Notes under the pieces: generated by a model
The model's input: only the letters and a program-made list of their open reading frames with translations
The model's database searches: none
Told to the model about the DNA's origin: nothing
Position numbers and translations under genes: made by a program
Shown: in pieces, positions 1,862 through 62,839 of the stretch
Layout: every line of letters begins with the position of its first letter
Numbering within the stretch: position 1 is the stretch's first letter
DNA from: Bolinopsis microptera
Lineage: Eukaryota > Ctenophora > Tentaculata > Lobata > Bolinopsidae
Reading direction: 5' to 3'
Length of the DNA: 64,000 nucleotides
Assembly (NCBI RefSeq): GCF_026151205.1
Contig: NC_087075.1
Coordinates: 10,958,303 to 11,022,302 of the forward strand

Positions 1862-2583
1862 TAAGAGATATTTATAAGCGTATTACGGGAGAATAAAGGA
1901 GACAATATAACGATTGGAAATATTAAGCCGGGTGTATACGGCAGTATGGATGAATTTAACAATGACTCTCGCTGACTCGCTCGTGTGCTGTCAACAATAT
2001 ATTCTAAAAATGAGAACATTGTTCCATTGACCATTTTTGTCTCTATGTTCTTGTTGGTCTTGTGCAAACACCAACTGCAAACATAAAATAAAAAGGAATG
2101 AGCTACAAAAATCAATAAATTAATGACATGCAACAAAAATTTACGGAAAAAAGATTGGACTGTCAGAACTTGTATTATTACTATAGAAGTTGCTATGGTG
2201 ACCGAGACTCCTAAAGAACACTACATAAAAACTGAACAACACTACATCAAAATAAGAGCCATCTTTTAACTGAAAATAATTACATTTGGATGATAATTAA
2301 CTTTTATTAAAAAATGATAGCTGAAAAATATTTGATCGGTTAATATTATGTATCGGGTAAAAATTGGATTGCAAAATTGCTGATAGGTAGAAAAAGTGAG
2401 TGACTAAAACCATGGCGGCAACGATTATTTACGCTGAACAAATTTCAGTCGGCAAGGTACATAATTATTTAACAGTTAACACATCAAACAAACTGCCTCC
2501 CAAACAAACCTGCACAACAGGAGAGTGTACCCGGCCCCCTCCCCTCAACAAACTGCCTCCCCAACAAACTGCCCCCCCCCCCT
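1862..2583. other. Intergenic; remnant of an LDLa exon start and C-rich sequence
   Basis: No complete gene is seen. At ~2510-2527 a short stretch repeats the first 18 bases of the LDLa exon at 2887-2904 (it reads Cys-Thr-Thr-Gly-Glu-Cys), then runs into C-rich repeats (AACAAACTGCCTCCC). This suggests the exon was split by the C-rich/MITE insertion that follows. Confidence 0.4.
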
Positions 2584-2585
2584 CC

Positions 2586-2850
2586 CAGTGGCGTAACGTT
2601 GCCTGTTGGCGGCCCCCCCGAAAATGCGCCTCCTTGTTGACGTTGCACCCCTCCCCTTTTGGCGCCCCTCACTAAAATTGAATAAATTAGGTGATTTTAG
2701 AAGATACGCCGGTAAAATCTCTAAAAAAGTGTGTTTCTAGAGCAAAACGCGCAGTTTTGCTAGTAGTAGTACCTCAGTTAAGTTTTTCAAAATTGTTCCA
2801 CATTCAAACGACGATTTTGCGCCCCCCTCAGATAGCCCCCCCCCCCCCCC
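2586..2850. mobile_element. hAT-like MITE, right end missing (copy A)
   Basis: Begins CAGTGGCGTAACGTTGCC and matches the intact MITE at 32401-32687 through its AT-rich core (GGTGATTTTAGAAGATACGCC region). The right terminus is replaced by a poly-C tract. The left terminus coincides with the tandem duplication boundary. Confidence 0.7.
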
Positions 2851-2884
2851 GGCCCCCTCCCCTCAACAAACTGCCTCCCCATAG

Positions 2885-3953
2885 GTGCACAACAGGAGAG
2901 TGTATAGACCTGCGTAAGTTATGTGATGGTAAATGTGACTGTTTGGACGAGAATGTCTGTGAGGATGAAACTCTCCTCTGTTCTGATTCTCCTTTCCAAC
3001 AACAGTTCCTATTGGTGTCAGGTCAGTTTTGTTTAATCCCAATTACGCAATACGCATAGTATATTGTTCTCGGGTTGCTATAGAGTTTTTATGGTATTTG
3101 AGCAGTTACCACGAATAACATTATGGTTGTTTTCTTTGATTTGTTGTAAGTTTATGGGTTACTACCTCAGTGTTTGAGTTAGTAGTTTTATTTAAATTTC
3201 TAATTTTTAAAACTGCCCTTTTGTTTTTAGAGCAAGCTGAAGCAGCGTTAGAGAAAGCAGTTGAAAAACTAAAAAAAGCTCTTCAATCAGGTAACGAAAC
3301 ATACGTCTCTCAGCTGTGAGTCGTTCTTTTGAGACCAGCAAAGGATCTCCGTCTCTTATCTTGATAACAAGATTTTATTTTTCCATGCCCATGGTCGCCT
3401 GTTAGAAATATTGTTAAATTCCAGTTTCACAAACAGTCAGTATATCATGACTTATCTCAAATCCTTAATTGTTTTGTAATTTATTTTTTATTTATAACTC
3501 GTTACTTGCACTATACTGAACAACTTACACTATTCAAACACTCAAAATAAGACACGATCGAATTTAAGGTAAGTTAATAGAAAAAGTAAGATCACAACTT
3601 GAAACGGACTACATTCAAAGTTACAACAAAGAAGGCAGGAGTCCGAGCACATTAAAACGATGACCTCACACTGTCACAGATAAAAACGTAGATAAGACCG
3701 GCGTGCGTAAGTCTAGTACTACTACTAGCAAAACTGTGTTTATGGGTTACTAACTCAGTGTTTGATCTTGAGTTAGTAATTTTATTTACATTTCTCATTT
3801 AAAAAACTGCCCTTTTTAGAGATTTTAGAGGAAGCTGAAGCAGCGTCAGAAAAGAAAAGAGAATCTCAAGTATCCTCCTCAGCAGACAATTTTGAAATTG
3901 CCCTTAGCTTCGTGTTGTTCATTACATATGGATTATGCTACATTTTGGACTAG
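2885..3953 (+). CDS. LDLa / coiled-coil / C-terminal TM protein, 3' exons, copy A
   Basis: Three exons, phase-consistent: 2885-3021, 3231-3290, 3820-3953 (stop). Exon 1 encodes one LDL receptor class A module: six Cys in CTTGEC..LCDGKCDC..DENVCED..LLC with acidic calcium-cage-like residues. Exon 2 is a charged Ala/Glu/Lys-rich helix (EKAVEKLKKALQS). Exon 3 continues a charged helix and ends in a hydrophobic segment (FEIALSFVLFITYGLCYIL) directly before the stop, as in a GPI-anchor signal or a tail TM. The 5' part, including any signal peptide, is not found; the region before exon 1 is a MITE and poly-C. Likely a small cell-surface protein; function unknown. Confidence 0.6.
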
Positions 3954-4435
3954 ACTTCTCCCTTACAAATATTTTTTGCCCAAATGAACTCATCAGTACA
4001 TTTTGCAAGGAGAAAATGTTTTCATCACAATATTACTGTTTGTCGGCCAGGCTCCTTGCCATGTCGGACGAATCCATTTTTCGGTACAATTTGGAAAACC
4101 TGCACTCTTAAAGTATCTGTTCATTCAAGAATGAGTCGTATATTTTGATGAATTTTGTGAGTGTTCATATTTAGTCTTACATCTTGACAGTTGAAAATGT
4201 GACTTGTTATGTTTTAATGTTTAATACAGATATAAATTTCTGTCCATTGCATGGCCATCTTGATCTCTTTGATTTGCTATTCGGTCTGATTTGACTAAAA
4301 AAGACTTAGTACAGAAATAACAAGTGAAGACACCCTCTCAATCTTTAACTCATATTTCCATTTCATTGATACTTTTCAAAGTTAATGGTTCGCTTTTAGT
4401 AACCTAAAGTTCCCTCGTATAACCTAGGAATTAGG

Positions 4436-4883
4436 ATGGTTATAGTTGTACTACTTCTCTTCTCCTCGATAAGACTGAGTCACCCTGCTCCTCCCGATCC
4501 TGCTCTTATAAAACAAGCTCTCAAAACATTCGAGGTTTGCTGTTTTTAATTACTTACTGCTGTAATTACAAGTTTTTTATTTGTAATTACCATGCTGTAA
4601 TGACAATTTGATTAACTGTGTTGATTATGGTATTATGTGCATGTTGTGTACGTTGACCAAGATTTCTACCCTAAAAAGTATTATTTCCACACTATAAAAT
4701 ATTATTTCGCGTTATTTTATAAGAATACATCAATTATATTATTTATAATCTAAAATTGACTTAATTTATCCATTTATCATATTTTCCAGAGCATGCGGTC
4801 AGTGTATCTGGATCTTGGAATACTCCCATCCGAGATAAGCAGTAGAGTTGATAACTTTGTTCGCAACTATGTCCGCTATGTTG
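4436..4883 (+). pseudogene. 5' fragment of the pseudo-protease gene (exons 1-2), copy A
   Basis: Exon 1 4436-4534 (signal peptide, MVIVVLLLFSSIRLS start) and exon 2 4790-4883 match exons 1-2 of the complete gene at 6803. Exon 3 is absent: downstream comes the second LDLa copy. Splicing exon 2 (phase 1) to the LDLa exon at 5259 would be out of frame and stop within about 8 codons, so this copy can only give a truncated secreted peptide. Confidence 0.75.
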
Positions 4884-4955
4884 GTATGCTCTTATGCTGT
4901 TTATACTTTAGATATATTCTGTATACACTAATAGTCTATATTTGACGATTCATCC

Positions 4956-5215
4956 CAGTGGCGTAACGTTGCCTGTTGGCGGCCCCCCCGAAAATGCGCC
5001 TCCTTGTTGACGTTGCACCCCTCCCCTTTTGGCGCCCCTCACTAAAATTGAATAAATTAGGTGATTTTAGAAGATACGCCGGTAAAATCTCTAAAAAAGT
5101 GTGTTTCTAGAGCAAAACGCGCAGTTTTGCTAGTAGTAGTACCTCAGTTAAGTTTTTCAAAATTGTTCCACATTCAAACGACGATTTTGCGCCCCCCTCA
5201 GATAGCCCCCCCCCC
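4956..5215. mobile_element. hAT-like MITE, right end missing (copy B)
   Basis: Second copy of the element at 2586, with the same truncation and a longer poly-C tail. It starts within two bases of the duplication junction. Confidence 0.7.
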
Positions 5216-5258
5216 CCCCCCCCCGGCCCCCTCCCCTCAACAAACTGCCTCCCCATAG

Positions 5259-6320
5259 GTGCACAACAGGAGAGTGTATAGACCTGCGTAAGTTATGTGA
5301 TGGTAAATGTGACTGTTTGGACGAGAATGTCTGTGAGGATGAAACTCTCCTCTGTTCTGATTCTCCTTTCCAACAACAGTTCCTATTAGTGTCAGGTCAG
5401 TTTTGTTTAATCCCAATTACGCAATACGCATAGTATATTGTTCTCGGGTTGCTATAGAGTTTTTATGGTATTTGAGCAGTTACCACGAATAACATTATGG
5501 TTGTTTTCTTTGATTTGTTGTAAGTTTATGGGTTACTACCTCAGTGTTTGAGTTAGTAGTTTTATTTAAATTTTTAATTTTTAAAACTGCCCTTTTGTTT
5601 TTAGAGCAAGCTGAAGCAGCGTTAGAGAAAGCAGTTGAAAAACTAAAAAAAGCTCTTCAATCAGGTAACGAAACATACGTCTCTCAGCTGTGAGTCGTTC
5701 TTTTGAGACCAGCAAAGGATCTCCGTCTCTTATCTTGATAACAATATTTTATTTTTCCATGCCCATGGTCGCCTGTTAGAAATATTGTTAAATTCCAGTT
5801 TCACAAACAGTCAGTATATCATGACTTATCTCAAATCCTTAATTGTTTTGTAATTTATTTTTTATTTATAACTCGTTACTTGCACTATACTGAACAACTT
5901 ACACTATTCAAACACTCAAAATAAGACACGATCGAATTTAAGGTAAGTTAATAGAAAAAGTAAGATCACAACTTGAAACGGACTACATTCAAAGTTACAA
6001 CAAAGAAGGCAGGAGTCCGAGCACATTAAAACGATGACCTCACACTGTCACAGATAAAACGTAGATAAGACCGGCGTGCGTAAGTCTAGTACTACTACTA
6101 GCAAAACTGTGTTTATGGGTTACTAACTCAGTGTTTGAGTTAGTAATTTTATTTACATTTCTCATTTAAAAAACTGCCCTTTTTAGAGATTTTAGAGGAA
6201 GCTGAAGCAGCGTCAGAAAAGAAAAGAGAATCTCAAGTATCCTCCTCAGCAGACAATTTTGAAATTGCCCTTAGCTTCGTGTTGTTCATTACATATGGAT
6301 TATGCTACATTTTGGACTAG
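5259..6320 (+). CDS. LDLa / coiled-coil / C-terminal TM protein, 3' exons, copy B
   Basis: Exons 5259-5395, 5605-5664, 6187-6320. Sequence is essentially that of copy A and all splice sites are kept. No upstream exon of its own is visible: the preceding same-strand exons are the truncated pseudo-protease 5' end. Expression would need an upstream promoter or trans-splicing; otherwise it is a duplicated fragment. Confidence 0.5.
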
Positions 6321-6802
6321 ACTTCTCCCTTACAAATATTTTTTGCCCAAATGAACTCATCAGTACATTTTGCAAGGAGAAAATGTTTTCATCACAATAT
6401 TACTGTTTGTCGGCCAGGCTCCTTGCCATGTCGGACGAATCCATTTTTCGGTACAATTTGGAAAACCTGCACTCTTAAAGTATCTGTTCATTCAAGAATG
6501 AGTCGTATATTTTGATGAATTTTGTGAGTGTTCATATTTAGTCTTACATCTTGACAGTTGAAAATGTGACTTGTTATGTTTTAATGTTTAATACAGATAT
6601 AAATTTCTGTCCATTGCATGGCCATCTTGATCTCTTTGATTTGCTATTCGGTCTGATTTGACTAAAAAAGACTTAGTACAGAAATAACAAGTGAAGACAC
6701 CCTCTCAATCTTTAACTCATATTTCCATTTCATTGATACTTTTCAAAGTTAATGGTTCGCTTTTAGTAACCTAAAGTTCCCTCGTATAACCTAGGAATTA
6801 GG

Positions 6803-9800
6803 ATGGTTATAGTTGTACTACTTCTCTTCTCCTCGATAAGACTGAGTCACCCTGCTCCTCCCGATCCTGCTCTTATAAAACAAGCTCTCAAAACATTCGA
6901 GGTTTGCTGTTTTTAATTACTTACTGCTGTAATTACAAGTTTTTTATTTGTAATTACCATGCTGTAATGACAATTTGATTAACTGTGTTGATTATGGTAT
7001 TATGTGCATGTTGTGTACGTTGACCAAGATTTCTACCCTAAAAAGTATTATTTCCACACTATAAAATATTATTTCGCGTTATTTTATAAGAATACATCAA
7101 TTATATTATTTATAATCTAAAATTGACTTAATTTATCCATTTATCATATTTTCCAGAGCATGCGGTCAGTGTATCTGGATCTTGGAATACTCCCATCCGA
7201 GATAAGCAGTAGAGTTGATAACTTTGTTCGCAACTATGTCCGCTATGTTGGTATGCTCTTATGCTGTTTATACTTTAGATATATTCTGTATACACTAATA
7301 GTCTATATTTGACGATTCATAACGACACAATTAATGAATTAATTGATTTTGTTTAAAAATGTTTCCCCAAATTTCCAATTAATAAGTGTACTATTTAGTA
7401 AAACTCTGTCCACCACACAGAGATAGATAAAATAAACGGTAAGACGTTCAACACGGGTCTGAACTCCATAGCCCTGCTGAGTGACCTGGAGTTACAGGAG
7501 ATGTTCGGGGTAGTCCCTGACAGCAGCTCCTTCCACTCCTTCCAGGTGTTTGTTAGTTTGTTAGTTTGTTTGTTTGTTAGTTTGTTAGTTTGTTTGTTAG
7601 TTCGTTAGTTTGTTAGTTCGTTAGTTTGTTAGTTTGTTAGTTTGTTAGTTTGTTAGTTTGTTAGTTTGTTAGTTTGTTAGTTTGATAGTTTGTTAGTTTG
7701 TTAGTTTGCCGGTTTGTTGGTTTGTTAGTTTATTTAATTAGTTTGTTCGTTTGTTAGTTTGTTAGTTTGTTAGTTTGTTAGTTTGTTAACTTTTGCTAGT
7801 TTGTTAGTTTTTTAGTTGTTTAGTTTGTTGGTTTGTTAGTTTGTTAGTTTGTTAGTTTGTTAGTTTTTTAGTTTGTTAGTTTGTTAGTTTGTTAGTTTGT
7901 TAGTTTGTTAGTTTGTTAGTTTATTAGTTTGTTAGTTTGTTAGTTTGTATTTTTATTAGTTTGTTTGTTTATTAGTTTGTTTATTAGTTGTTTTTTTTTT
8001 GGTTTTTTGTTTGTTTGTTTGTTTGTTTGTTTGTTTGTTTGTTTGTTTGTTTTTTTTTTGGTTTTTTGTTTGTTTGTTTGTTTGTTTGTTTGTTTGTTTG
8101 TTTGTTTGTTTGTTTGTTTGTTTGTTTGTTTGTTTGTTTGTTTGTTTGTTTGTTTGTTTGTTTGTTTCACAACTTTCCACAACTTTATGTTATCATTTTA
8201 TTTATTATTTATCATATTTACAATTTTCAGAGGGATGATCAGGTGTCCAGTAAAGTAAACGAGTTGGAAGTTTTAAAGTCGAAGATCGGAGAGGATCGTT
8301 ATAACCAAGCTGCTGTCGTATTCGCTGTTAGTTTACATTATTTAATTGATTAATTAATTAATTATTCAACTACTGCGACACTTACAATGTGGTTTTCGTT
8401 CATTTTACTCTTCGCCCGCAAAGGACTATTTAAAATCAAGTTTATTCACCGTATTTCATATTATCACAGCCATTCCCTATTTTCATTTCTAAAACCTTTT
8501 ATTTCTCTCACTTTTGGTCCTTATTTTCATACCTCACTCATCTCACTTCAGCGATTACGACCATACTACAAAAAGCTCGGTGTAGATCACAACAACCAGA
8601 AAACACGTCTAGCTCAGTTTATTGAAGGCTACAATCAACAATTCTATGGTGCGCAAAAGTTTCCAGCTTACCAGCTTAGTGTTCTCATGACTCTCACTCA
8701 TCTACGCTGGATTACAATTAGAGATAATTACCGCTTGTTCATTTTAACTATTAATACAATCTTTCGTTAAACAGGTCATATAAAAGGTTCTAGCTTGGAC
8801 GAGATAGCAGCCAAAGCGGCATCAAAAAAGGACGTTATAGGATTACTTGGAGTCAAGGAGATAGAGCCCAAAATTTACTTAGACGAGGTTAACATTAAAT
8901 GGACCTAAGTTCTCAATTTCTCATAATTTTACCTTTTTTACGATCTGCAGCGACTGAAAGAAAAATGAGAAAGTAGCTTCAGGAATTATTCTTTCTTCTT
9001 AAACTTAAAACAAATGAACACAAATAAATCATGTCAAAATAAACCAATCAACATATTTTTTCATTCTCACTTTAACTTTAAGTCTTGATCTTGCAATCTT
9101 GACTGTAAATTGAATCATCTTATCACTGAACTATTCAATTTCATCACTTCATCACTCTCGTCTCCTAGGAATTGTCTGATATCTCGCACGGTGATAAGAA
9201 GGTTCCAGAACCCGATAGTGCCGGACGTCACGAAAAAACCGTTTATTTTGACGATATTGGAGAACTCCTGAAATCTGAGCATTACCATAGCAATACTGTT
9301 AAGCAGTGCGAGACAGCTATCGCTAACAAAACTTGCGCGGTAATTTTTTTCTGAAGATTATTTGTTTGAATCTTTGGCAACTTTAAGTTTAAGTAATTAT
9401 GTCAATCTGCATATTATCTGGACATAGATTGAATTAGGTTGAGTTTATCAACCATTTAATAGTATTCAATAAGTCAAAACCATTAAAAATACAGGTGAAC
9501 AAAGACAATCTGGGAAGAGATGAATTTACAGGCAAAAATTACAAGTGTTTGAATGTTCGCATGAAGTTTCGCTGCTTGGAAAACGAGCTTGGAATCCCGG
9601 GCGAGTTCAGAGATTGGGAGAAATGGGGCTATGTCAGATCTCTCCTACATTACAGGGTCCGTTGAAAATTTATCGCGTGGTTATAATTTGGCATTAACAG
9701 ATCTTTAATAGCAATTAGCAGTTGCATGGTCTGTGATTAGAGGGAAAAGTGAAAACATTGATCTGTGAGGAAATTTAGAACGTTGTGGGTTCAGGGTAAT

Positions 9801-12800
9801 AATAAGTAACCGTTTCCAGTCTGCCACGACGATGCCAGCTGGGTGGGCTCACACAGCATCTCAGATAATGGACATGTACCAGCAGATATACGCTAAAATT
9901 GTCACCTACTACAGACGAGATCTTACTGATTTTACTCACGTGAGTCTTTATTTTCATTCTGTGTACAGCAAAACCCCGATTTACTGCACCCCGATTTACC
10001 ACACCCCGATTTACTGCAATCCCCGATTTACCGCGACCATTTTTCCCCAAATAGGGCTTAACATACATACTGTAAACAATTGAAACTCCGATTTACCGTA
10101 AACCTCGTTTTATCGCGGCTTTTACCCTCCTCCCAAACTCCGCGGTAAATCTTGGTATTACTGAACTTCAAGTATTGTAAAGATTCTTGGTATAGTGGCG
10201 TTTTTAATGTTATCTGGCTCCTTATCAAAAGGTAGGGAGTTCAATCCCCAGCCTGAATTACCATTTGTTATTGAGAGATGGAGGGCTAAACTCGTGAAGC
10301 GCAGCCCTGGAGAAATAATATAGTCTAGCCTTGGTAAGAACATTTATTTTTTTTAAAGAATTAAAAAACAACAAACAAAATTTGTTTGTCGTTTTTATCT
10401 TTTAAAGATCATAATTTTTCAGCTGCTGAACTGTGTGTACGCAACTAACGGATTGGGGAGAGGTTCTCCTCAAGCAGCATTCCAGTACATCAGTGAAGTA
10501 AGTTATACTTAAAATAGGTAGGTCAGCAGCGCCGATGGGAATGGTGGACCACACTAGGTTGGGGGGGCGAACTTTGTTTGTGCGATTTGTTTTGACATTT
10601 TTGGTCAGTGTTGGATGGTTACTGGTCGATGGTTACTGGTCAATACAAGCGCTGTTACGAATTAGAAAAAATATGGTTCACCTCTCCACCATTATCCAGA
10701 TCTATTGTATCTTTCCTTTTCACTAAAAGTTTTTTTGGGTCTCGTTCGGGGATGGACAAGTTTATTTAAAGATTTAAGGCAAGCCTAGCTTTGCTTACAC
10801 TTTACAGCCAGTAGAGCTGAACCAGAATAATGATAAATTAATCTTGTAACCACCATAGAAGCCAGTAGAGCTGAACCAGAATAATTACAAATTAATCTTG
10901 TAACCAGTAGAACTGAGCTAGAATAATGACAAATTAATCTTGTAACCACCACAGAAACACGTTGTCCCCAAGTTCTCTTCAACAGAGGTCCCTGTGAACT
11001 GTCGAGACAGAAAGAAAAAAACCGATGATTGTTCGGATTACAAAGATTATATCAAAGATATGTTGATTGATAAAAGTGGTGGTATCTTCTACAAGTACCT
11101 TTATTTGTGGGATAAAAGCCGGAAGGGAATGAAAAATGAGTTTTGTTATAGTAACAGCATGGTGTTTGAGCCTAGTAAAACTTCTATTCCGGGTAAGTCG
11201 GATAAATTATAAGCAGCAGATAACCAGCTTGATCTGTTGATTTTAACTAAGAACTAAAATCACAGTGCTGGCAAGCACGACCGTTGCATTTATTGTGGGT
11301 ATACTATGTACCCCATTTACTATTATACCCCCTTTACTATTATACCCCCTTTACTATTATACCCTCTTTGGTACACGTTACAAGCCTCTTTCGTGCACGC
11401 GAAGCGTGCACTCCGGCGGAGGCTAGGCGGCGGCCGAAGGCCGCCGCCTCCGGCAGGAGTTTTTCAGACATTAAGACTCATCGGAAGTCGTTCAGCAGAT
11501 TTATTTTAGTTCAAAACATTCTAATTTGATGTCAAAGATGACAGGAATAAAAAATAGTTATGTTGAGATTTTTAAGAAATTTGCATAAAATACTCGCCAG
11601 CACTGTTATACGAAATTCGGTAAAAGACCCAAAATCGCCATATTCAGGTGCCTTAAAAACCATGTTAAAATTGAGTTAGAGATCTGAAATTTTTCAGGGC
11701 GTCTAGACGTTGACCAAATCGACTGCAAAAAAAGTTTCAGGTTTCAGGAACATCGGGAAGTGGGTTTTCTAGAACCCCTGTTTTATGACAGATTGTCGTG
11801 ATATATACATATATACATATTCAGGGATAGACGCTTTGCCAGTCAATTGTAGCCTGTATTTAATTGTCCATAGATTCAAAAGTATAAAAGATACAGCCAT
11901 TTCCGACCACAGGTCTTGAAAATAATTGTTTACACTTTAGTTTACATTGTACAAACAAATTATTTGACGTCATGAACACCCTTTGATGACGTCATCAAGT
12001 TAACCGTTTTTAAAACTTGATTTTTGACAAAGTGATAACTTTTAAAAATGATTTTACACCATTAAAAAGTAATTGTATTCAAAATCTGAGGAAATTTTCA
12101 CATTAGATAATTGTTCAAGCATTCTGAAAATCTACCGGAAAGTTTTTCTAGCTTGCTCCTTCATAAAGATATTCGTCATTGAAGTTTGTGCTTTTTTGAA
12201 GAATTATTTTATAAAAACGTCAATTTTGCGATTTAGTATTCTCTGGTGTTGGGCCATGCCTTGGGTTGTGGAGCTCAGTTCTGCTTCCTATAGGTATAAA
12301 TTGTGCATTAGGCTAGTTTTAAAGTTGAAAATAGAAAATTTGCACACGTGGGGACACGCCCAAATTGATAGAAAATCGCTAAAATCACTGAAAATTGCTG
12401 TTTTCGTCATTTTCTGTCAACTTTAGAGTGCCGTTGTGATTACAATTCTTCTTGAAATACTTTGAAACTTTGCATGCTTATCAAACTATATATAAAACAA
12501 TTACATGCAAAAATTTACGGCGATTCAATATTGGATGCGCACGCAACGTCCGCTCAAAGTTTGCACGCGCGAAAGGTGAGAATTTTGCTCATTCGTGATT
12601 TCCAACAAATTCTGCTTTGCCACGACAGTTTAATGTCATTATATATGAATTTAATGCCAACTTGAATGAGTATTAAGTGGCATATTCAGTCAGTGATCGA
12701 CCGATATGCTTACCTAAACACAAGGAAATGTTTTTAAAGGAAAAATTTCGAAATCGTTGAAACTTCCTCCTTATTAATGAAGATATCAGTTTATATTTCG

Positions 12801-15800
12801 ACTTTATAAAGTACCCTGACATTATAATCAAAAATAGATGATATTTGACAAAAACCCATAATCATGGGTAGAGTGGACCGCTGCCAGTGTCTCTCTTTCC
12901 CAAACAAAAGGAAATGATATTAATTTGATTGACCGTTCTCAAATGCAAAATGATACCGAGAATGAAATCGGTCGCTCGCTTTTCCCTTACATTTACAATT
13001 GTAATAGACTATGAAAAACTACCCAAAGGCAGCTGTACTCGGCAATAAAGATTCAATAAACTTCAGCAGTAGTAACTACCACCTTTACCCCGAAATACTA
13101 GGTATCGACCCGAACACAACCCAAAGAGATTTTTACAGCATCTGATTGATGTAATTAATCGAAAATTATTACAATTCGAAAGCCGTGAATGAATGGGAAA
13201 AGCGAGCGACCGATTTCATTCTCGGTATCATTTTGCATTTGAGAACGGTCAATCAAATTAATATCATTTCCTTTTGTTTGGGAAAGAGAGACACTGGCAG
13301 CGGTCCACTCTACCCATGATTATGGGTTTTTGTCAAATTAATTATAAAAATAATGCACACTGATATAATTATGTTTTAGGTACTTCATAAAACTCTTAAA
13401 ACTGGTCCTGATTTTTAACACTTCCTGTGTCTGAAACAATGCTTGTTGAAATATTTTTGATGAGAAACTTTTTATCCCCGCAGATGTGTCGTTTTTGCCC
13501 GGAAAAGCCTACATTCAGTTTGCCGACACATCAAAAGGTAAGAACTTGAACTTTCTTCTTCTTAAGAACTTGAACTTATCTACTTCTTTAAAATGCCTTT
13601 ACCTTGCATTACAAAGAATATTAAGAGGAGCAGACTGAAAGTTGGAACTTTATTTCTTTTTTATAAGCACTCAATTGATCAGCCTATCTATCAGTTGAGG
13701 TTTGGACTGAATCAGATGGAGGAAACGCCCTCACGTTTCGTGGATCCGTTTACGGTGAGAACATTGCAAAACCGCTTCTCTACAAGAAAGGACCCTTAGC
13801 AGTAATGATGTCTGCCTGCTACGAGATATTCGGATATACGGACGGGATTTTCGACTACGATTGTGCGAAATCTTTACACCGATATTTACCACAATGGGTA
13901 AAGAGTTATAATTTTCTTTTTCTTTATTTTTACGAGTTTAAATTCTTTCGTTACTGTAATACAACAAATCATTTTAGATGTTACAGATAAGTATGAATTA
14001 TGAATAATTATTATTGTCTCCCTGGAATATGTCCTGTTATAGAAGGTTAAATTTCATATCAAATCTCTAATATTCTGCCCATGACACTACTACGTCTCCA
14101 ACAAACTCTATCAAATCAGGTTACGATAGTATCGTACGGTACCACTTGGTTTGGAACAGTCCTACCCAAGCTTTATAGTGTCAGCAATACTTTTGGTGTG
14201 GACTATCCGACTGTGTTGAAGTAGAATATTTATTTTAATTTCATGATGATATTGTAGTTATAGTGGTAGTTATAATTGTACACTTTTCTAGGTCTATGCG
14301 CCTCAGTTGGAAAGTCAAATAATGCAAAAATATCAAATGTAAAATACATATAATATCTATAAATCAACTTAATCTTCAAATACCTAAAATGAGCTGCCAT
14401 CTGGTTAAAGTTGAGCGAATAATACAAGTGTTAAATACATAAATGAATTTATATAATATAATGCTACTTTCAGGGTATCTCGTAAAGATAAACACACCAT
14501 TATATGGGACTCATTTGTGCTACCAAGAGTGACGCCAAGTGTGACGCCATATAAAGATTCTCTGAGTTGTACGAACGGAGGAATATATTATCTCACTGAT
14601 GAAAATGATGGCAAGTGCTACTGTCCTATGGTGAGTCAGTTTGTGTCTTGTGATTGTGTGTTGAATCTTCTCGACATGACGGAATTAATGTCCCACTTTT
14701 AGTTAATCTTGTCTTTTTATTCTGGTATTTCTTTACAGCCAAATGTTGTTTTGTACGATTTTATGTACGACAAAGATGTAGGACATAATTTACCGTTTTA
14801 TTTTTCAGAATAAAAAAGGTCAAAGGTGTCCAGATGAATGTGAACTGACCTATCTCACTGATGGAAATGATGGCAAGTGCTACTGTCCTAAGGTGAGTCA
14901 GTTTGTGTCTTGTGATTGTGTGTTGAATCTTCTCGACATGAGTATGACGGAATTAATGTCCCACTTTTAGTTAATCTTGTCTTTTTATTATGGTAATCTG
15001 GTATTTCTTTCTATTCGCCAATCTTTGAATTGGAAGCGCGGCTTTTATCTCACCTCACGCTTCACAGCCAAATGTTGTTTTATACGCTACAAATGTACTA
15101 TTGTACTAAAGATGCAGGACATAATTTACCGTTTTATTATTCAGAATAAATACGGTCCAAGGTGTCAAAGTGAAAATTCAGAATGTGAACTGACCTATCT
15201 CACTGATGGAATTGATGGCAAGTGCTACTGTCCTAAGGTGAGTCAGTTTGTGTCTTGTGATTGTGTGTTGAATCTTCTCGACATGACGGAATTAATTTCC
15301 CACTTTAGTTAATCTTGTCTTTTTATTCTGGTATTTATTTTTATTCGCCAATCTTTGAATTGGAAGCGCGGATTCTATCTCACCTCACGCTTTACAACCA
15401 AATGTTGTTTTATACGCTACAAATGTACTATTGTACTAAAGATGTAGGACATAATTTACCGTTTTATTTTTCAGAATAAATACGGTCTAAGGTGTGAACT
15501 GACCTGTGAACTGACCTGTGAAAACGGGGGACAGGTCTCCCGTGGGAGCTGTGAATGTGACTGTAACGGTCAGTTCTACGGGAAACGCTGCCTTAAAAAG
15601 TGCACGTGCAAGAATTCTGGGAAGTGTGACGCGCATGGCAACTGCATCTGTCACAGACAGATAAGTTGGGGGACACAATGTGAGAACCGGTGCGAGTGTC
15701 AGAACAACGGTTACTGCCACAACGACGGCTCCTGTGAGTGTATGGCCGGATTTAAGGGACCCAAGTGTTCTGGAACATGCGCTAAAAAGTGCCAGTCCCC

Positions 15801-16065
15801 TAAAGTGTGTCTGTACTCCAACTCGCGCACAGAGTCCGGTGATCAAATCAAGGAGTTCTGTGGGTGCCCACACGGCTTCTACGGAGAAGGCTGTCTCAAC
15901 AGAGTGGACTGCCATCACAACGCAGAGGGGAGAGAAGGCAACTCAGATCTCTGCAAAAAACTGATGGGTAGAAATAGGTGTAATACTGATGAAGCGATGA
16001 AGCAGTGTCCCCATGCCTGTGGGCATTGTCTGACTCTTGATGTAGCTACTGAGTTTGATATGTAG
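6803..16065 (+). CDS. Secreted I29/papain-fold pseudo-protease with EGF-like and ShKT domains (18 exons)
   Basis: Exons: 6803-6901, 7157-7250, 7421-7545, 8231-8326, 8552-8678, 8775-8887, 9169-9339, 9495-9656, 9820-9939, 10423-10497, 10955-11192, 13484-13537, 13695-13897, 14120-14220, 14474-14630, 14809-14892, 15145-15237, 15475-16065; 2,703 bases, 900 aa, phases agree at every junction. Signal peptide ~1-16. Residues ~50-100 resemble the cathepsin I29 propeptide (INGKTFNTGLNSIALLSDLE). Residues ~312-590 follow the C1A papain order: FRDWEKWG (DWR region), MPAGWAHTAS at the CGSCWAFS site (catalytic Cys becomes Gly337), LLNCVYATNG..AAFQYI, GPLAVMMSACYEIFGYTDGI, then PQWVTIVSYGT at the NHAVxVGYG site (catalytic His becomes Gln558). 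The acceptor before exon 14 is weak. EGF-like Cys-rich repeats follow, and a six-Cys ShKT module ends the chain. A long extra segment (~107-300) is unassigned. Probably non-enzymatic and extracellular. Confidence 0.75.
7553..8167. repeat. GTTA/GTTT tetranucleotide array
   Basis: Intron 3 of the pseudo-protease gene: about 400 bp of mixed TTAGTTTG units, then nearly pure (GTTT)n from ~8000. It gives spurious Val/Cys/Leu/Phe and Lys/Gln/Thr frames. The array starts 8 bases after the exon 3 donor. Confidence 0.9.
9965..10150. repeat. Short CCCGATTTAC-type repeats in intron 9
   Basis: Five or so imperfect copies of a CCCGATTTACYGC unit, then related CCTCGTTTTATCGCGG. No gene. Confidence 0.5.
10804..10955. 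repeat. Three ~50-bp tandem repeats in intron 10
   Basis: Unit contains AGTAGARCTGARCYAGAATAA and AATTAATCTTGTAACCA, repeated three times directly before the exon 11 acceptor. Confidence 0.75.
11263..11605. mobile_element. MITE with CAGTGCTGGC terminal repeats
   Basis: Starts CAGTGCTGGC and ends GCCAGCACTG, a 10-bp perfect terminal inverted repeat. A larger relative lies at 49881-51760. The interior holds TACTATTATACCCC repeats and a GC-rich inverted patch around 11400-11455. No clean target duplication is visible, so superfamily is open. Confidence 0.65.
12846..13340. mobile_element. Long-TIR MITE (~145-bp inverted arms)
   Basis: The left arm (from TTTGACAAAAACCC) and right arm (ending GGGTTTTTGTCAAA) are near-perfect inverted repeats of about 145 bp around a ~200-bp core. 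A fragment of one arm recurs at 51780-51905 and a degraded whole copy at ~57840-58340. Confidence 0.8.
14474..15475 (+). repeat. Tandemly duplicated EGF-like exon units
   Basis: The 3' half of exon 15, exons 16 and 17 and their following introns are tandem copies of ~250-330 bp. Each exon carries YLTDxxDGKCYCP, a GTGAGTCAGTTTGTG donor region and a CGACATGACGGAATTAAT intron segment. The exons are symmetric (phase 0), so copies add modules without a frameshift. Confidence 0.85.
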
Positions 16066-16089
16066 TGTTTATAGCAGGACCGACTGACC

Positions 16090-16335
16090 GAGGGACAATT
16101 TTTGACCGAGGGCGAGGACTTATTCGACCCCTAAACCGAGGAATGACTATTTTGGCCGAGGACTTAGTCGACCCCTAAACCGAGGAATGACTATTTTGGC
16201 CGAGGACTTAGTCGACCCCTAAACTGAGGAATGACTATTTTGGCCGAGGACTCAGTCGACCCCTAAACCGAGGAATGACTATTTTGGCCAAGGACAAGTC
16301 AAAATGGCCGAGGTCGCGGGGCTCGGTCGACCCCT
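16090..16335. repeat. ~59-bp minisatellite (GAGGAATGACTATTTTGGCC unit)
   Basis: Four imperfect copies containing GACCCCTAAACCGAGG and TTTTGGCCGAGGAC, just after the stop of the pseudo-protease gene. A corrupted copy lies at ~61260-61540. Confidence 0.85.
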
Positions 16336-16633
16336 GGTTCAGAGCCGAATTTTACGACAAAATTGGTTGTCTCTATCTTTATATTTAGTGTTATTTTTCA
16401 TCAGTACATTCTGATTCATCTTTGAAATTTGTATATTTTCCAAAAATCAATTGAATATTTCTAGAGTTTTGTATTCGAGGAGTATGAATGAATTAAAACA
16501 CTTGACTCCATCCCTCTCAAAAATGTAATTAAATACTTACGAAGACAGATGATGACAAAGAAATTGTAAATGACACAGTGACACCTAAACGATTAATACA
16601 GATTACTTCAAGCATGACAGTTGACCACAGGTA

Positions 16634-19600
16634 ATGATACTGGACGGATCATTTCTCCTCCTCCTCCTTCTTTTTCTCAGAACTATTCACACAAAAGACT
16701 TCTACTTTTATGCTGATGTTCGCTGGGACAATGTAGACCACTTCAAATCCCATCCCGAAACGATCCCATACAATCACGGTCTACGAATCATCCCCGCACT
16801 TCATGTGGCACTAGAAAAACTGAAAGTCCTGCACCTCTGGTCCGCCTCTCCAAAAGTTAACGGATATGTCACAGACAATTTCTTCTACCGGAGTAACTCA
16901 GAATTCTTAGCATCATGTAGAACAGTGAACAACACTAATGGTAACTGGGATAAACCCTGTTATCTCCATGCTAACTACGATGTCGGATTCTGCTCGCCTG
17001 AAGAACTCACTCCTGCAGATGCCTCTGTAGCCACGCTCCACTGTAAAAATAATCCTCCCGAGGACCACGTGTTCTCTTTTTTGTCCAATCAGACTAACAC
17101 ATCGTCTGTTAGCTTGCCCATGCTCCCCGAGGGAAGTGAGATAAAGCTTGTTCTTCCTGATGGCACCGGACTATCTCAATCTCACCGGGAGGATTTTAAC
17201 AATAAATTTAGCGAGGAAGAGCTTTCAGACAATATCTCTCTGAAGGAGATGAATGTGAGGATAAAGTTTATAGCTTGGCTTTTAGGGGACGAGTTTGCTG
17301 GAATTGTTGGGTCCACTGATAATGCTTATAATTCTGCTCTGATTTCCAGACGGCTGGGTGTTCCGAACATTGTACCGTCTGTTACAGATAGTAAAGGTAT
17401 GCTTTGCAATTAGTGTGATATACAAATTATTACTATTTTCCTTGGCGATATCGCTATTTTAAGTTTTTTATCAATACATTCAAGATTTTAAGGGATTCAA
17501 ATATTTCTCCATTTCATAGTTGGGAGCAACCGTTTATAGACCACCCATACAATATATAAGTACTTAATTCATAACCTTATCAGAACATTTCATTGATCAG
17601 GATGGATTAATATATTATTTTCTAAATAATGCCAATAATATCAAATTATAAAATCTGTAAGTCTGCAGGAATGTGGCCGCTCAGAAGTGATGCTAACTTC
17701 GAGTCTGGTATACTTGATAACAGTTTAGTTCTTGGTTATGAGGATTGGATGATACTGGACATGTTAACTTTCGTAAGTGACCTACCCAGCCATAATTAAT
17801 ATTTTATAAGCGCGAATTAAATCTTTTCTTCTTTTTAAAAGGTACCATGCACTTACATTTTGTTTATAATTACCCTTGCCTAATGCTTATCATTACCACC
17901 ATATAATATATGCGATTGAACATTATCCCTGCTTAATGCTTATCATTACTCCTGCTTGTTATTACCCCAGGATTATCCATTACCCCTGCTTGTCATAACC
18001 CCATGATTATCCATTACCCCTGCTTGTTATTACCCCAGGATTATCCATTACCCCTGCTTGTTATTACCCCAGGATTATCCATTACCCCTGCTTGTTATTA
18101 CCCCAGGATTATCCATTACCCCTGCTTGGTATTACCCCTGCTTGTTATTACCCCTGCTTGTCATTACCCCAGGATTATCCATTACCCCTGCTTGTCATTA
18201 CCCCATGATTATCCATTACCTCTGCTTGTCATTACCCCAGGATTATCCTTTACCCCTGCTTGTCATTACCCCAGGATTATCCATTACCCCTGTTTGTTAT
18301 TACCCCAGGATTATCCATTACCCCTGCTTGTAATTACCCCAGGATTATCCATTACCCCTGCTTGTTATTACCCCAGGATTATCCATTACCCCTGCTTGTC
18401 ATAACCCCAGGATTATCCATTACCCCTGCTTGTCATAACCCCATGATTATCCTTTACCCCTGCTTGTCATTACCCCAGGATTATCCATTACCCCTGCTTG
18501 TCATTACCCCAGGATTATCCATTACCCCTGCTTGTCATTACCCCTGCTTGTCATTACCCCATGATTATCCATTACCCCTGCTTGTCATAACCTCAGGATT
18601 ATCCATTACCCCTGCTTGTCATTACCCCAGGATTATCCATTACCCCTGCTTGTTATTACCCCAGGATTATCCTTTACCCCTGCTTGTCATAACCCCATGA
18701 TTATCCATTACCCCTGCTTCTCATAACCTCAGGATTATACAATAGTCAATATACATTACCCTGGCCCTGCATATCATTACCCCAGAAACTGTACCCCACA
18801 TCTCCAGATAATCAGTGAAGCTGGTTGGTCAGGAGGCTCAATGCAGATACTCCATGAGTCTGGGTACAGTGAGCGGCTCGCTTTGTCAATACGATCAAAC
18901 TTACAAGAGGAGTTGGAGAAGAGAGTTGGTGTGGGAGATAATATCAGGATTACTAAAGATATGTATCTGGATAGGATCTCAACTTGGGATTATTACGTAC
19001 CTGTTAGTGAGAGGGGATCTGTAGAGGATGTTCATTTGTTGCTGGATTTTATTCCATCTAGGACAAGAAGTAAGTTTTTAACTATGTTATTTAATCTTTT
19101 TATCACCTATTTCAAAGTTTAAGCAGGCTGTTAGCTTGTAAGATTACTATAAAGATCTTGAGCATCTAAAATAACTAACTTCTCTTTTATGTCTATTCAT
19201 TTCAGTCATCCTCATCCTCGGAAAAGAAGACTTCATCAGACATACTCTTCAAGAACTCCACCTTCGTAACATGTACAAAAGAAACATCACGCACTCAAGC
19301 AATTTTGATCACACTGACGAGGGAATACCTGACGTAGATGATATTGAAGGATATTATCAGTTTGGTATCGTGATAATACCTGATAACGGTGCACCGTGTG
19401 GGGATATGATCCGACCCTATAGCGGAGGAGCTAGTGAGACTGAGAATATTATCACTCAAGTATTGGATGTGAGTCAGAGATTGAGGATTAATACGGGATA
19501 GCAATAGTGTACTACAATCACTGGGAAGTTTCCTGTGATTCAATTTTACTTATATTCTTTTATCTTAACTTTTTGTTTAAATATTTCTAATCTGTTCTGT

Positions 19601-22600
19601 TTTAAATTGTTTGATTATTTTATTTTTAGGGCGCGTTTTTGCTCTGCCACAATGCACATAACCGGAATACCTGGCGCTACAAAAACCCAACATCAATGTC
19701 AAATGACGGGAGTAACTCTCCTGGTAAGTTTAGGTGGAAACTAGACCCTCCTTCAATGAACACGTTGACACATTTTGACGAGGGTATCGGGGAGGAGAGT
19801 TACAGGCTGAACAGGAGATATTTGGTCAGGGAGGATGAACTGACTTGAAGAACTGGAATATTTTTGAGTTAGCTGGTTTGATATTTTCCTAGATATAAGA
19901 TGATTCGCTGGTCTTATCTGCTGGATGTAATTGTTTGGGCAAATATAAACTTTTTTTAACATTTTTTTTTTAATTTAAAAAAAAAACTTGAGTTCTTCAT
20001 CAGAACTCAAACGTTCAGACAAATTCTCAAAATTATTATTTTCTGTACATTAGTCTGAATAGTCAAGGGACTATAAATAATGTCAGAATTTTATTCTCAC
20101 ATTCCTTTCTTCAGAGAGGAATTCAGAGAACAAGCCTCGTCCGCACTAGGATTCTTGTATCCACCGGATCAATCTGTAGGTCAACTTAATCTTCTAGTTT
20201 CGTTTATGATCGGGGGGGGGGGGGGGTAATGACTACTTTTGGGGACTTGGGGAATTACGTCAATTCCCCATGATTTTTAGTCCCCATTAGTCCCCAAAAG
20301 TCTCCATTAGTCCCCATTTAGATTTCAAAAAATCTGGCTTCTCCAGACCAGATCGTAAACTTCTCAAGACTGAAGTCTAGAATATGTATAAATATGGTCA
20401 CTGGACATTCCTGACTTCTTGGGAGCTACTTGAGGGCTGTTAGAGTACCTCAGGTTATTAAACTAACTTGAAAACCATAAATAACTGTCAAAAATTCTGG
20501 GGACTTATGGGGACAAATGGTGAATTACGTCAACGAGTCGAGTCCCCACGACTTTTAGTCCCCATTAGTCCCCAAAAGTCTCCAGTGGTAGTCATTTACC
20601 CCCCCCCCCCCCCCCCCCTTATGATCCTATGATCTCAAACTGTATCGTTATGATTCAATTTAAACTTCAGAACTTGTTAAACGTCTACCGAACCAAATAG
20701 TTTAGATTTCTTTTTTGCCTCTTAAGATTTCTATCCTGATCATGATTTATTTTCACTCAAAACCATTTCGCACTCCTAATAGTAGTCTGCAGGTGTCAGG
20801 TTTAGCTGGATTCGCACACGACTCCCTCATTTGGGGAATGTTCACCGCTCTTCTCAACAGAAACCACCCCAACTTGTTCGTCTCCAGATCCGGGGAGTTC
20901 ACTCTTGTTAATCTGTACAGTGACGGAACAACTCATCCTAATACTAGGAGTTATCCTACTGCTGATATGAAGCCTATTGGGTGGCCTGGTTAGCATTTGT
21001 TGTTAATTAACTTAAAACTCAGATCCATTAGATTATATCTTTGGAGCATGGCAGTCATGTAACGAAATAAAATTAGTATGCCTTTCAAATTGAAACTTTA
21101 ACAAATGAACAGTTTTATAATAATTTGTAAAACATGCAAAATGCAAACGATATTCGCGAACATGATAATTAATTATAATTAGTACAATAATTAATTATAC
21201 TTAATTATAATAATTGCAGGTATGTTTGGTGTGGAGAGTCCGCCTATATCAGAGTACAACACAACACATGTCATGAAGAATTCTTCCTTCCTGATAAACG
21301 ATGGCCCGTGGCATGACATTGTTAACAGATACACTTTCAAGGATAATAGGTTAACATCTTAATATTACAGGGATGATAGGTTAACATTTTTAATATTACA
21401 AGGATAGCAGGTTAACATTTTTAATGTTACAAGGATAAAACGCTAAAATTTGTAATAGAACAAAACTTAAACTGAGTAATTAATTAATTTCTTTACTCAG
21501 GCCATTTGGTAGTGTACCTCACAGAATAAAGATATTTCAGGATGGCAAATGGAAGGTAAATATTTGAATACCATACCTCCAATTTCAATCAATTTGTTAT
21601 ATAAACATTTAATTTAAGGAGTTATTCTAACGGAACAATCCAATTTCACAACTCATATTACTAAATTATAATGAGCTCCTCCAGATCAAAAACCCACTCA
21701 GGCTCTTGCGGGACTCCTGCCTCACAGAAGAAAAAAAGAACGGGACAGTAGAAACTATGAGCAGGAAGCGGCGAAGTTGTCTTCGGAGTTACACTTCGAC
21801 TCCTTTGGGAATAGTTTGGAAACTGGCGTGCCTTTGTGAGTTTAGTTATTTAGTTAGTGTTTAGTTAGTACATGATATCTAGTCCGTATTTAGTTAGTGT
21901 TTAGTTAGTGGAGCATCAGAATTCTGTGATATAATTATTATATTATCAAGTCTTCATTGATTTAAGATATTACACCGCATTTCAGTTGTGACATGTAAAG
22001 TTTTTTTACTTGGGTTTGCATAATGTTTTACTTTTAAAATTATTAATTAATAATTCCACTAGTTACGACAAGTACAAGTTTATCCGTTATTCACGAGCTG
22101 AACAAGGTCATATTATTGCTGACGAAACGTCATGTGGATACGATCACCTCATTTGTTACTGTTAGTAAATAATTTTTTTACTTGTTCTTAAATTTCTTGT
22201 AGTTAAATTGCTTAAATTACAACGCTCTGAATCCTAATGCAAATGCATGTGTCAGATTGTTGTAGAACAATTAACGGATTAACCGGTAGCAAGCTTTTGT
22301 CCATCCCTTTTAATAGTACCATTTTCTGAGTGAAATAATCTATGATTCACTCCAGGGAGACGTAGGATTAAATGGATAATCACGATCGCTACCAGTGGAT
22401 CTGTGGGGGCTATTTTATTGTTTGGACCTCTGATATACCTGTTCTTTCGGTGGAGAAAATTCAACACTGAAATCAACGCCATGCGATGGCGTTTAAAGGA
22501 CTCGGAGGTGACTTTCAGTAAGTTGTAATTATCAATATGTTATGTCTGGAGCTTTATCACAGATCGGTTGGAAGAGGTTTTAAAGCTAGATGTTTAATGA

Positions 22601-25600
22601 CAAATTGATTGAGACTGATAATAGATAATGCCAACGTGAAGGCTAACATAATAAAACAATTGAAAACATCAAACCTACACTATATCAAACTATGTTACAG
22701 GATATCAGTACACGGATGAACAATCCGCCGACTCAGATGCCTGCAGCAGTTCGAGTGAAAGTTCAGATGAGTCTATAACAAATATTGAAGCAATTGACGG
22801 GCTCATTATGCCAACTCTTACCATTAGAAAAGGATCAGATCATGTTCCTAATCGATTAGGAATCGATTATAATCGGAGAAAGTCCAACTTCTCTGGAGTG
22901 AGAGATAGACGAACAATGCCCACGGCCTCGGCTGCTGGAAATTGTCGGAGAAAATCATATTTTGTTAAGAATGATCCACCAGGCAGTTTTCTGAAACTTA
23001 CTAAGAATAACGAGGTTTTTAAGCAGCTTGCTGTTTTATTTTCATATAACATTACAGACTCATATCACTACTATCCGCATTATATCCGCATTTATTCTTA
23101 ATGTGCAATCGGCACACGTATATACTGGGTTATTTCGGAGGTTTCTGATATTAGGATAATTGTTGTAGGCTAATAAACGTTAACAATCAGGGATCCACGC
23201 TCTCAGTTGAATCTGAAGAGGACACTAGAGATTACATTTACACTGATTTAGCAGTGTATAATGACCATGAGTGGGCTGCTAAGGAACTCTCTCGTGCTGC
23301 TACTTATATTATTAAAGGAAGTGGTAGAAACTTCAGGATTGAAATGAAGGAGGTGGGTAAATATATTAGTAGAAACTTCAAGCTTGAAATGAAAGATGGT
23401 GGTCAATATATTTGTTTACTGCGTCCAAACATGAAAGTGTTGGCTGATATGATAAAATATCCACTGCCCTTGGTGAATTTTATTGATTTCCAATAATAGA
23501 TGTAAATAATTTTTCAGTTACTTGAACTAAAGCACAAGAACCTCGCTAAACTGTGTGGAGTTGTGTACAATAATAACCTTGCTAACTACATGTTCCTATC
23601 ACAATACTGTAAAAGGGGCTCCCTCAAGGTTGTATTCTCTGTAGTTATGCTATAGATATTCAGTCTCTCAAACCTCAGAATCACTGCCACATGTCAAAAG
23701 ATATGCTTCACCTCCCCACCAGAATCCATATCTACAAATCCAATACTAAGTTTACGTTAGATAACTAATCACCTTAAAAATTATCAGAATGTTCTGGAAG
23801 ACAAGGACTTTATATTCGATCTGGAGATCAAGCTGAGTTTCATCTGTGATATGATACACGGTATGGAATATCTACACAACCACACGAGTATTGGATCCCA
23901 TGGTTACCTCAAGTCTTCAAATGTTGTGGTTACTGGATGTCTCACCGCTAAAATAGCTGACTTTGGAACCTTGTGCAGGTTATTGTGATTGCGTAGGTTT
24001 TTTGAAATGCAATAATATGATGTAATGATAGCAACTGGTAACTGGCGAGTAACAGAGAGAGAGTTGAGGAGGTATTTCATCTGAAATAACACCCCTCAAA
24101 TTCCCGCTAGCTCAGCTAGCGGTAAAAATAACATTTTGTGGCTCCAGGGTAACGGACACAGAAAAGTTGGAGGAGCTTGGTGAAACTTCAGCTAACATCC
24201 ATTCTATGTGGTCAGCCCCGGAGATATTGAGAGAGCAGATTCAGCAATCTGTGTTTGGTAAGATCGTGGTTTAGTTTATTAAGTTTAGGTTTAGTTTAAT
24301 TTAAAATTAGTTGTTATTTGAAATGGTGTCATATTATATTTGTATAACTATGACGACCTGTTGTGGATAGTTTCAGACTAGTGCCATTATTTGTTTGGAT
24401 TTATACGATTATCAAAATACATATAATGGACAATGGTGCTGGCTACACTAAAACTACACAAACGAATATTTTTTAAATAAGTTTCGCACAATGCATAATA
24501 CATTATAATGTATTATTATTACAGTGTATATATATAATACACTGTCTGAAAAGGTAACTTATTTACTTTTAACTGTAGATGATCTTCTCAGGGACCAAGG
24601 AAGGAGATGTTTATAGTTTTGGTATAATATGTCACGAGATATTGGAGTATAGTGGACCTTTCAACACACATGACCATCATGGACTAGATGCACAGGGTAA
24701 GAACTAATAGTTTTAAAATGGTTATTAGTCGAGGAGACGACGTGACCAAGCCGAGGTGAAATGGAATGTCCCACGACGGAGATCGAGACTAGCTTGCAAA
24801 CTTTCGAAAAAGCCGTCAAAGATCATGATTTCAGCTCAGCTAAAATTTACTATATAACTCATTTCTCACACCTAATTTCTCATACCTACCTATTACCAGA
24901 AGTAGTGACTCTAGTAAGAAAGTGTCACTCCAAGTCCCCGTACCGGCCTGCGTACAGCGTGAACCCCAACATGGAAACCAAAGAACGAACAGCTGTCAAC
25001 ATGTCTCTCCAGTGTTGGAGTGAGGACCCGGAGGAGAGGCCTAGTTTTAAGGGTCTACTCCGCGGCAGAGTCCCTGATATTACGAGTATCAGGTCAGTTG
25101 TGTGTGTGAAAGTGAAAGTGAAAGTGAAACTTAAAGCTTGAGGCTCCTTTGAATTATATGTGCAATATGCAATGTTAGAAGTTGTACCTTATGAGATCAA
25201 CAATTTCAACATATTCACCAAACTGGTAATCTTTTTTTGCTCTTATGAGTGGGTCAATCATTTATTTTTAATTGTAGTTGACGAAATGAGAGTCTCCACT
25301 CAGTGTGTTAAAACATAATTCTTAAAGAATTATGTTTTAACACACTGAGTGGAGACTCTCATTTCGTCAACTACAATTAAAAATAAATATTCACCAAACC
25401 CAGGAAATCAGTTGTTGAACATGCCCTGGAAACAGTAAAGAAGTACAGCAAGAAAAAAGAAAAGAAGATCTCGCAGCTGGATTCTGAGTTGAGATCGATA
25501 AGAGGCGATATTGGACGGCTTCGACTGCAGATTCTGCCTTGGTAAAGAACTTTTGTTGTAATAATTACGTAATTAAATAAGATATGTATTATATATATTA

Positions 25601-32028: not shown

Positions 32029-32400
32029 ACTGCAGCGGTTACAAACTGTGATGTTTCCTGCAACTGCACACCAACGTATACAACAGAACAAGGGTAGAAC
32101 TACACTCAAAGAGAAGGGAGCCCGATTCGATACTTTCTTTTACAATCCAAGATATTTGTGAACGTGATTGAGATACCCGTCTTGATGTTTGAGATCAGGG
32201 ATCATTGCTGAGACTTTTGTCTGCATAAAAAACGCTAAAATTCCAGAGAAAGTGTGAAGCTGCATGATCAAGCTTAATGGCCAGGTTCCAAATAAAAATG
32301 TACGTACAAATGAGACTAATATAAGATTTCTGTAATCTGATTTCTATGCGAGTACTGGCTTCTTCCTAATTAACCGGAGCTCACAATTCCGCCTTTTCAC

Positions 32401-35595: not shown

Positions 35596-35633
35596 GACAC
35601 GTGACGACTATGTGCTGTGCATAACAACACGTG
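35586..35633 (-). promoter_or_regulatory. Cluster of three CACGTG E-boxes at the SHPK-like start
   Basis: CACGTG at 35586-35591 (inside the first codons), 35598-35603 and 35628-35633, each within ACACGTGAC. bHLH-ZIP factors (USF/Max/MITF-TFEB types) bind this motif. Three in 48 bp at a start codon is far above chance; function is inferred. Confidence 0.5.
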
Positions 35634-40402: not shown

Positions 40403-40548
40403 AGTAGTATAGTGTCATGGTTTGGAGCCCCGTTTGAGCTCTATCCGAGACACATTTTAATAAAATGTCATTTTAGCACAGTTGACTAATCTGCCACATT
40501 TTAGCCGGAGGTTACAAGTTCGAATCCCAGTCGGAGTCGTTCTCCAAT
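40403..40548 (+). other. tRNA-like (Pol III box) sequence at the arm terminus
   Basis: Begins TAGTATAGTGTCATGG, like an A box. About 100 bases on is GGTTACAAGTTCGAATCCC, close to a B box (GGTTCGANTCC). The mirror copy is at 44625-44770. It does not fold convincingly as a whole tRNA. Could be a tRNA-derived SINE fossil or chance. Confidence 0.3.
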
Positions 40549-62280: not shown

Positions 62281-62307
62281 CAGTCAAGGGACTATAAATA
62301 ATGTCAG

Positions 62308-62799: not shown

Positions 62800-62839
62800 G
62801 TTAGCATTTGTTGTTAATTAACTTAAAACTCAGATCCAC

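Follow-up and report, generated by a model that had tools for sequence, protein, structure and literature searches.

The closest described counterparts of the protein considered here are TINAG and TINAGL1, extracellular proteins in which, according to one account (PMC2976702), a catalytically inactive cathepsin-type domain is combined with EGF domains, and which are further characterised there as cathepsin B-like, with an N-terminal somatomedin-B domain. A multicopy family of cysteine proteases from the parasitic scabies mite has also been presented as inactive (PMC5956821). The gene analyzed in this work lies on the forward strand of contig NC_087075.1 of the ctenophore Bolinopsis microptera, at positions 6803-16065 of a 64,000-nucleotide stretch that is referred to as the window, and all coordinates below are those of the window unless a locus is named. 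By profile, its product contains a C1A-derived (papain-type) domain from which the catalytic Cys-His pair of an active C1A peptidase is absent. The reading that we favor, with about even confidence, is that of a secreted, non-enzymatic extracellular binding or scaffold protein, composed of a degenerate procathepsin-L-like part, about seven EGF-like modules and a ShKT-like tail. TINAGL1 is also called lipocalin-7 and TIN-ag-RP, the latter reportedly described as an inactive cathepsin with EGF domains in a 2001 paper by Wex et al., and the mite family is designated SMIPP-C.

The present protein shares with TINAG and TINAGL1 the combination of an inactive cathepsin-type domain and EGF-like modules, but its C1A domain is nearest to cathepsins S and K, its EGF-like modules come after the C1A domain and an extra ShKT-like tail follows them. 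The Pfam scan of the protein yielded no match to somatomedin-B and, on the features tested, it would stand outside the TINAG family. The original prediction, made from the letters alone, had regarded the architecture as unfamiliar. This holds for the combination of dead C1A domain, EGF-like modules and ShKT as a whole, for which no description was found in the titles and abstract openings of open-licence PMC articles, but not for its parts: fusions of C1A and ShKT are common in this genome and the association of an inactive cathepsin with EGF is known from TINAGL1.

Profile searches identify the C1A domain as a distant but genuine member. Submitted alone, it matches Pfam Peptidase_C1 (PF00112) above the cut-off of 20.7 bits, both with a short form of exon 14 (25.7 bits, E 1.4e-5) and with a long form of this exon (25.4 bits). 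A profile of our own, built from seven C1A enzymes, assigns it 17.8 bits against 5.6 bits for the best of 1000 shuffled sequences (17.5 and 4.4 bits, respectively, when exon 14 is long). Among single sequences, the best score was obtained with cathepsin S (16.2 bits), versus 1.6 bits for cathepsin B. As had been proposed, the C1A landmarks follow one another in order along several exons, and the catalytic residues are missing from them. The position of the CGSCW motif reads PAGWA, with the predicted replacement of the catalytic Cys by Gly confirmed at residue 337 (codon GGG, 9841-9843), and the position of (N/D)H(A/G)V reads PQWV, placing Gln558 (codon CAA, 13892-13894) where the catalytic His would be. 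There is indeed no His at this place, as predicted, but the Gln that had been meant may lie just before 14120, in what is an intron of the present model, and would then not be Gln558. The Asn of the NSWG motif corresponds to Asn582, which is encoded only when exon 14 is long. In the alignments, the residue that we take to be the oxyanion Gln is apparently lost too, and the pair that we presume to be Cys22-Cys63 is jointly lost. Because both catalytic residues are replaced and these further residues are missing, the assignment of a non-catalytic C1A-derived domain is supported at the sequence level, in line with the loss of catalysis that had been put forward.

The gene was rebuilt from the raw sequence as 18 exons on the plus strand, as originally proposed, with a frame open from the ATG at 6803 to the TAG stop at 16063-16065, GT-AG borders at all introns and mutually consistent intron phases. 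Its product has 876 amino acids with the short exon 14, or 900 with the long one. Exon 1 (6803-6901) carries the start codon, a hydrophobic, signal-peptide-like N-terminus and the beginning of a first I29-like module, the remainder of which occupies exons 2 (7157-7250) and 3 (7421-7545); exons 4 (8231-8326), 5 (8552-8678) and 6 (8775-8887) encode a second, perhaps related module. A linker and the start of the C1A domain (GEFRDWEKWGYV) are encoded by exons 7 (9169-9339) and 8 (9495-9656), with coding scores of 18.6 and 16.3 bits. The active-site helix region, including Gly337, falls in exon 9 (9820-9939), and the central portion of the domain, which has acquired a long insertion relative to other C1A sequences in the alignment, in exons 10 (10423-10497) and 11 (10955-11192). 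Its right half, including Gln558, is encoded by exons 12 (13484-13537) and 13 (13695-13897). These are followed by exon 14, for which we prefer the long form (14120-14220, with Asn582 at 14186-14188) over an alternative end at 14148, and by exon 15 (14474-14630), which combines the end of the C1A domain with the first EGF-like module. Exons 16 (14809-14892) and 17 (15145-15237) contribute further EGF-like modules and lie inside a tandem array (14772-15517) with a unit of about 330 bp of exon plus intron, and exon 18 (15475-16065) encodes more such modules and the stop codon.

The coding signal was evaluated on the model with the short exon 14, using as reference eleven open frames, of which nine came from C1A loci, one from a transporter and one from a gene resembling a sugar kinase. 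In-frame codon usage resembles that of other genes of the same genome, exceeding that of introns by 260 bits in total. Scored singly, 10 of 17 exons (3, 4, 6-11, 13 and 15) reach p <= 0.01, the p values of exons 11 and 13 being too favourable since their null windows were shorter than the exon, and exons 1, 2, 5, 12, 14, 16 and 17 are individually weak. Exon 18, which was scored without a null, provides 97 of the 260 bits in frame; its other two frames score 57 and 31 bits, and part of the 97 bits is hence attributable to composition.

The N-terminus is signal-peptide-like, with hydropathy of up to 3.69 over 9 residues, and beyond residue 22 no 19-residue stretch exceeds a mean hydropathy of 1.08. 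The I29-like propeptide that had been proposed is weakly supported: our own I29 profile (five sequences) gives a weak score of 5.6 bits, beaten by 1 of 1000 shuffles, but Pfam scans of the protein returned no match to Inhibitor_I29 (PF08246). The module of exons 4-6, taken alone, scores -0.6 bits against the same profile. The two modules align to each other with a Smith-Waterman score of 45 over 34 residues, a value reached by 15 of 5000 shuffles, and they have the same intron phases (phase 0, then phase 1), so that a single module may be present twice, in exons 1-3 and again in exons 4-6.

At the other end of the protein, the EGF/ShKT part (residues 619-900) contains 42 of the 52 cysteines. 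The tandem EGF-like modules, about seven as counted by eye, are clear and were correctly anticipated; they resemble the SCARF1 (E 3.4e-07) and teneurin types, the match to EGF_TEN (E 5.1e-07, 30 bits) being under the curated cut-off of 65. The C-terminal ShKT domain of the original prediction corresponds to a stretch at 15910-16029 that has a six-cysteine framework ending in C-x3-C-x2-C, with loop lengths that differ from most. Against a native profile of 22 stretches, chosen by cysteine pattern from loci of the same genome, this tail scores 13.5 bits, matched or surpassed by 0 of 2000 full shuffles and by 8 of 2000 in which the cysteines were left in place. The spacing and this profile thus speak for a ShKT-like tail, but Pfam ShK (PF01549) does not match it in a scan of the protein to E 1, nor was any match inside the window present among the 150 of 235 candidates that were scored in a ShK search of the genome to E 1.

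To place this gene among its relatives, the assembly (264,652,675 bases, 232 contigs) was searched for C1A domains and their partners. Counted exon by exon, there are at least 154 Peptidase_C1 matches, and at least 22 reading frames, paired by eye on contig, strand and frame length, have both C1A and ShK. Among seven fetched frames examined with Pfam, four hold C1A and ShK together: an I29-C1A-ShK protein (L034), two C1A-ShK proteins (L003 and L007) and a 945-residue C1A protein with seven ShK stretches (L060:555-3389), whose linkers are rich in Thr and Ser by eye. In the other three, C1A is accompanied by two kringle stretches and an I29 match under the cut-off (L057), by I29 and ricin-type lectin matches that are both under the cut-off (L058), or by an I29 match close to the cut-off (L059). 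Like the present gene, L034, L003, L007 and L060 show C1A followed by ShKT, but they do so in single open frames rather than 18 exons and have no EGF Pfam match at E 0.01; the first three retain Cys, His and Asn and the last reads CGSCW, whereas the present gene has Gly and Gln. L057 and L058 likewise fuse C1A to other domains, and L058 has lost its Cys as well, but their C1A domains are readily recognised (176-178 bits) and their accessory domains are different. Papain plus ShKT is therefore ordinary in this genome, and the unusual part is the dead, EGF-bearing form.

The catalytic residues were surveyed across 29 fetched loci, in those C1A stretches that a search at E 0.001 detected, leaving out those of the window (L009-L033) as well as L035 and L056. 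Cys is kept in 33 of 34 stretches, His in 29 of 29 and Asn in 29 of 29, which makes their loss unusual in this genome, with the proviso that the threshold used would miss a domain as degenerate as that of the present gene. The sole Cys exception (L055) reads CGSFW, and the catalytic Cys of L058:364-2340, outside the survey, is replaced too (CGSSW). A genome search with EGF_TEN produced 18 matches, none of them near a C1A among the matches listed, which is a limited test for C1A plus EGF elsewhere. A separate locus (L054:3118-4095, equivalent to G000:C4:4010117-4011094) encodes a secreted-looking protein of 326 residues in which one I29 match exceeds the cut-off of 24.4 bits (25.5) and a second falls short of it (23.4), and with no C1A among the matches listed; it is possibly a free-standing double propeptide inhibitor.

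With its Cys and His lost, the protein probably binds rather than cuts. It would be secreted, judging by its N-terminus, its C1A domain would fold like papain and it would be unable to hydrolyse peptides. The degenerate procathepsin-L-like part would comprise one I29-like module, or two, together with a C1A domain devoid of catalytic Cys and His; the C1A cleft and the propeptide-like portion could offer a binding surface, with the EGF/ShKT part acting as spacer and anchor. By analogy, such a protein may work much like TINAG and TINAGL1, which present an inactive cathepsin with EGF-like domains outside the cell, and its role in extracellular binding or as a scaffold is suggested by that comparison. 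A lectin-like or inhibitor-like role is also possible. If true, a cathepsin would have been turned into an EGF-bearing, non-enzymatic secreted protein in a non-bilaterian animal, apart from the vertebrate TINAG proteins. C1A proteins are numerous in this genome and are combined with many accessory domains, and its repertoire of C1A mosaics (ShKT, kringle, perhaps lectin) merits a systematic survey.

Several observations weigh against a binding protein derived from procathepsin. The Pfam C1A match disappears when a sequence of 876 or 624 residues is scanned and is present with the domain alone, end-to-end alignment to 16 C1A references gives identities of just 16-25% (highest for cathepsin S), and support for the C-terminal end of the domain is poor, its score with the long exon 14 being equaled in 33 of 2000 shuffles. 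A phmmer search of the domain against solved structures in the PDB places an unrelated protein at the top (E 0.014) and lists cathepsin K at E 0.7, and the matches of our own profile are local only (5.7 and 10.6 bits), as would be the case if the similarity to C1A were due to chance and the middle of the protein had an unrelated fold. The Pfam score over a curated cut-off, the failure of all 1000 shuffles to reach our profile score and the order of the landmarks across several exons make this explanation very improbable. Mismatches to a second copy of the locus in the window (52597-61547), mostly read error, are moreover hardly rarer in exons than in introns. A formerly active protease that is now drifting, with a frame still open through the recency of its loss, would account for the missing catalytic residues and the high divergence. 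The divergence is nevertheless large for a recent loss, and the 876-900 codons are still open and used as in other genes. No close active paralogue emerged either: the 25 matches of the 876-residue protein in the whole genome at E <= 0.01 all lie within the window, so that the gene has a single locus and is no recently ruined copy of a neighbouring one, and tblastn against 30 fetched loci gave an unconvincing best E of 0.15. Such decay thus strikes us as improbable.

The rebuilt gene might alternatively join two transcripts or genes, of which the first, C1A-like, would stop shortly past exon 13 or near the start of exon 15 and the second would encode the EGF/ShKT part. The junction of exons 14 and 15 is the weakest of the model, and of 14 GT donors tried between 14120 and 14260 ten lead to an early end at 565-603 residues, three of them in the frame with a YLVK stretch. 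Four donors do preserve the EGF frame, however, with the site at 14220 (GTAGAA) the better-looking one, and the EGF exons of this model have neither a start codon nor a signal peptide of their own, so that we consider an error of this type rather improbable. Between the two ends of exon 14, the long form is better by eye and similarity is undecisive, the short form being equaled by 13 of 2000 shuffles. The main rival is that the I29-like modules and the dead C1A domain act as an inhibitor or decoy, which would regulate the large cathepsin set of the animal by binding either its active C1A proteases or the inhibitors of these. Free I29 modules of the CTLA-2 type can inhibit C1A proteases, and both the abundance of C1A matches in this genome and the protein with two I29 matches at L054 favor such a role. 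The I29 similarity of the present protein is weak, though, and binding is a prediction, so that this alternative is unlikely but keeps an appreciable chance. An extension of it, which we deem a slim prospect, would have the gene represent a class of secreted ctenophore pseudo-cathepsins with a "double propeptide" that has not been described before, in which both I29-like modules, together with the dead C1A domain, serve as a built-in inhibitor or decoy for the animal's own large set of cathepsins while EGF and ShKT tether them in mucus or matrix. For exon 14, a shifted reading with the stretch YLVKINTPLYG, which resembles YWLVKNSWG, was rejected, as it meets a stop codon.

At the DNA level, most of the gene recurs in the window: positions 7885-16352 align with 52597-61547 over 9093 columns, among which there are 372 mismatches and 646 gap openings. 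Single-base indels prevail, with a bias to insertions, and indel density is much the same in exons as in introns. A second alignment has 338 mismatches, made up of 306 transversions and 32 transitions. A frameshifted paralogous pseudogene was considered for this copy and rejected, the insertion-rich single-base indels and the excess of transversions being those of read error and not of evolution; we interpret it as unpolished long-read sequence from this very locus that was placed in the assembly. Its differences being read error, the copy is unusable for measuring selection. It likewise has GGG at the Gly337 codon, and CTA, not His, at the Gln558 codon. Upstream, positions 2583-4953 and 4953-7320 form a 2.4-kb tandem duplication, 99.4% identical, which provides a second copy of exons 1-2 and may be either a real event or an assembly artefact. 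Elsewhere, portions of 20050-21027 are found again at 62271-62838, with few gaps and an identity of about 94%, and 40403-42412 recurs inverted at 42745-44770 (2 kb, 99.0% identical), possibly as a read-hairpin artefact.

Exon 18 gave no match against viral contigs. The next gene downstream (16625-27000, plus strand) has exons that by eye resemble the ligand-binding part of a receptor guanylate cyclase; a kinase match at 24746-25141 is under the Pfam cut-off, and three other pieces of this gene had no Pfam match. The remaining genes noted in the window are single-frame: by Pfam, an FGGY-type sugar kinase (34300-35607, minus strand), a sugar/MFS transporter (37236-38864, minus) and a DDE endonuclease (45243-47699, plus), and a reverse transcriptase at 30583-32139 (minus) that is Penelope-like by eye.

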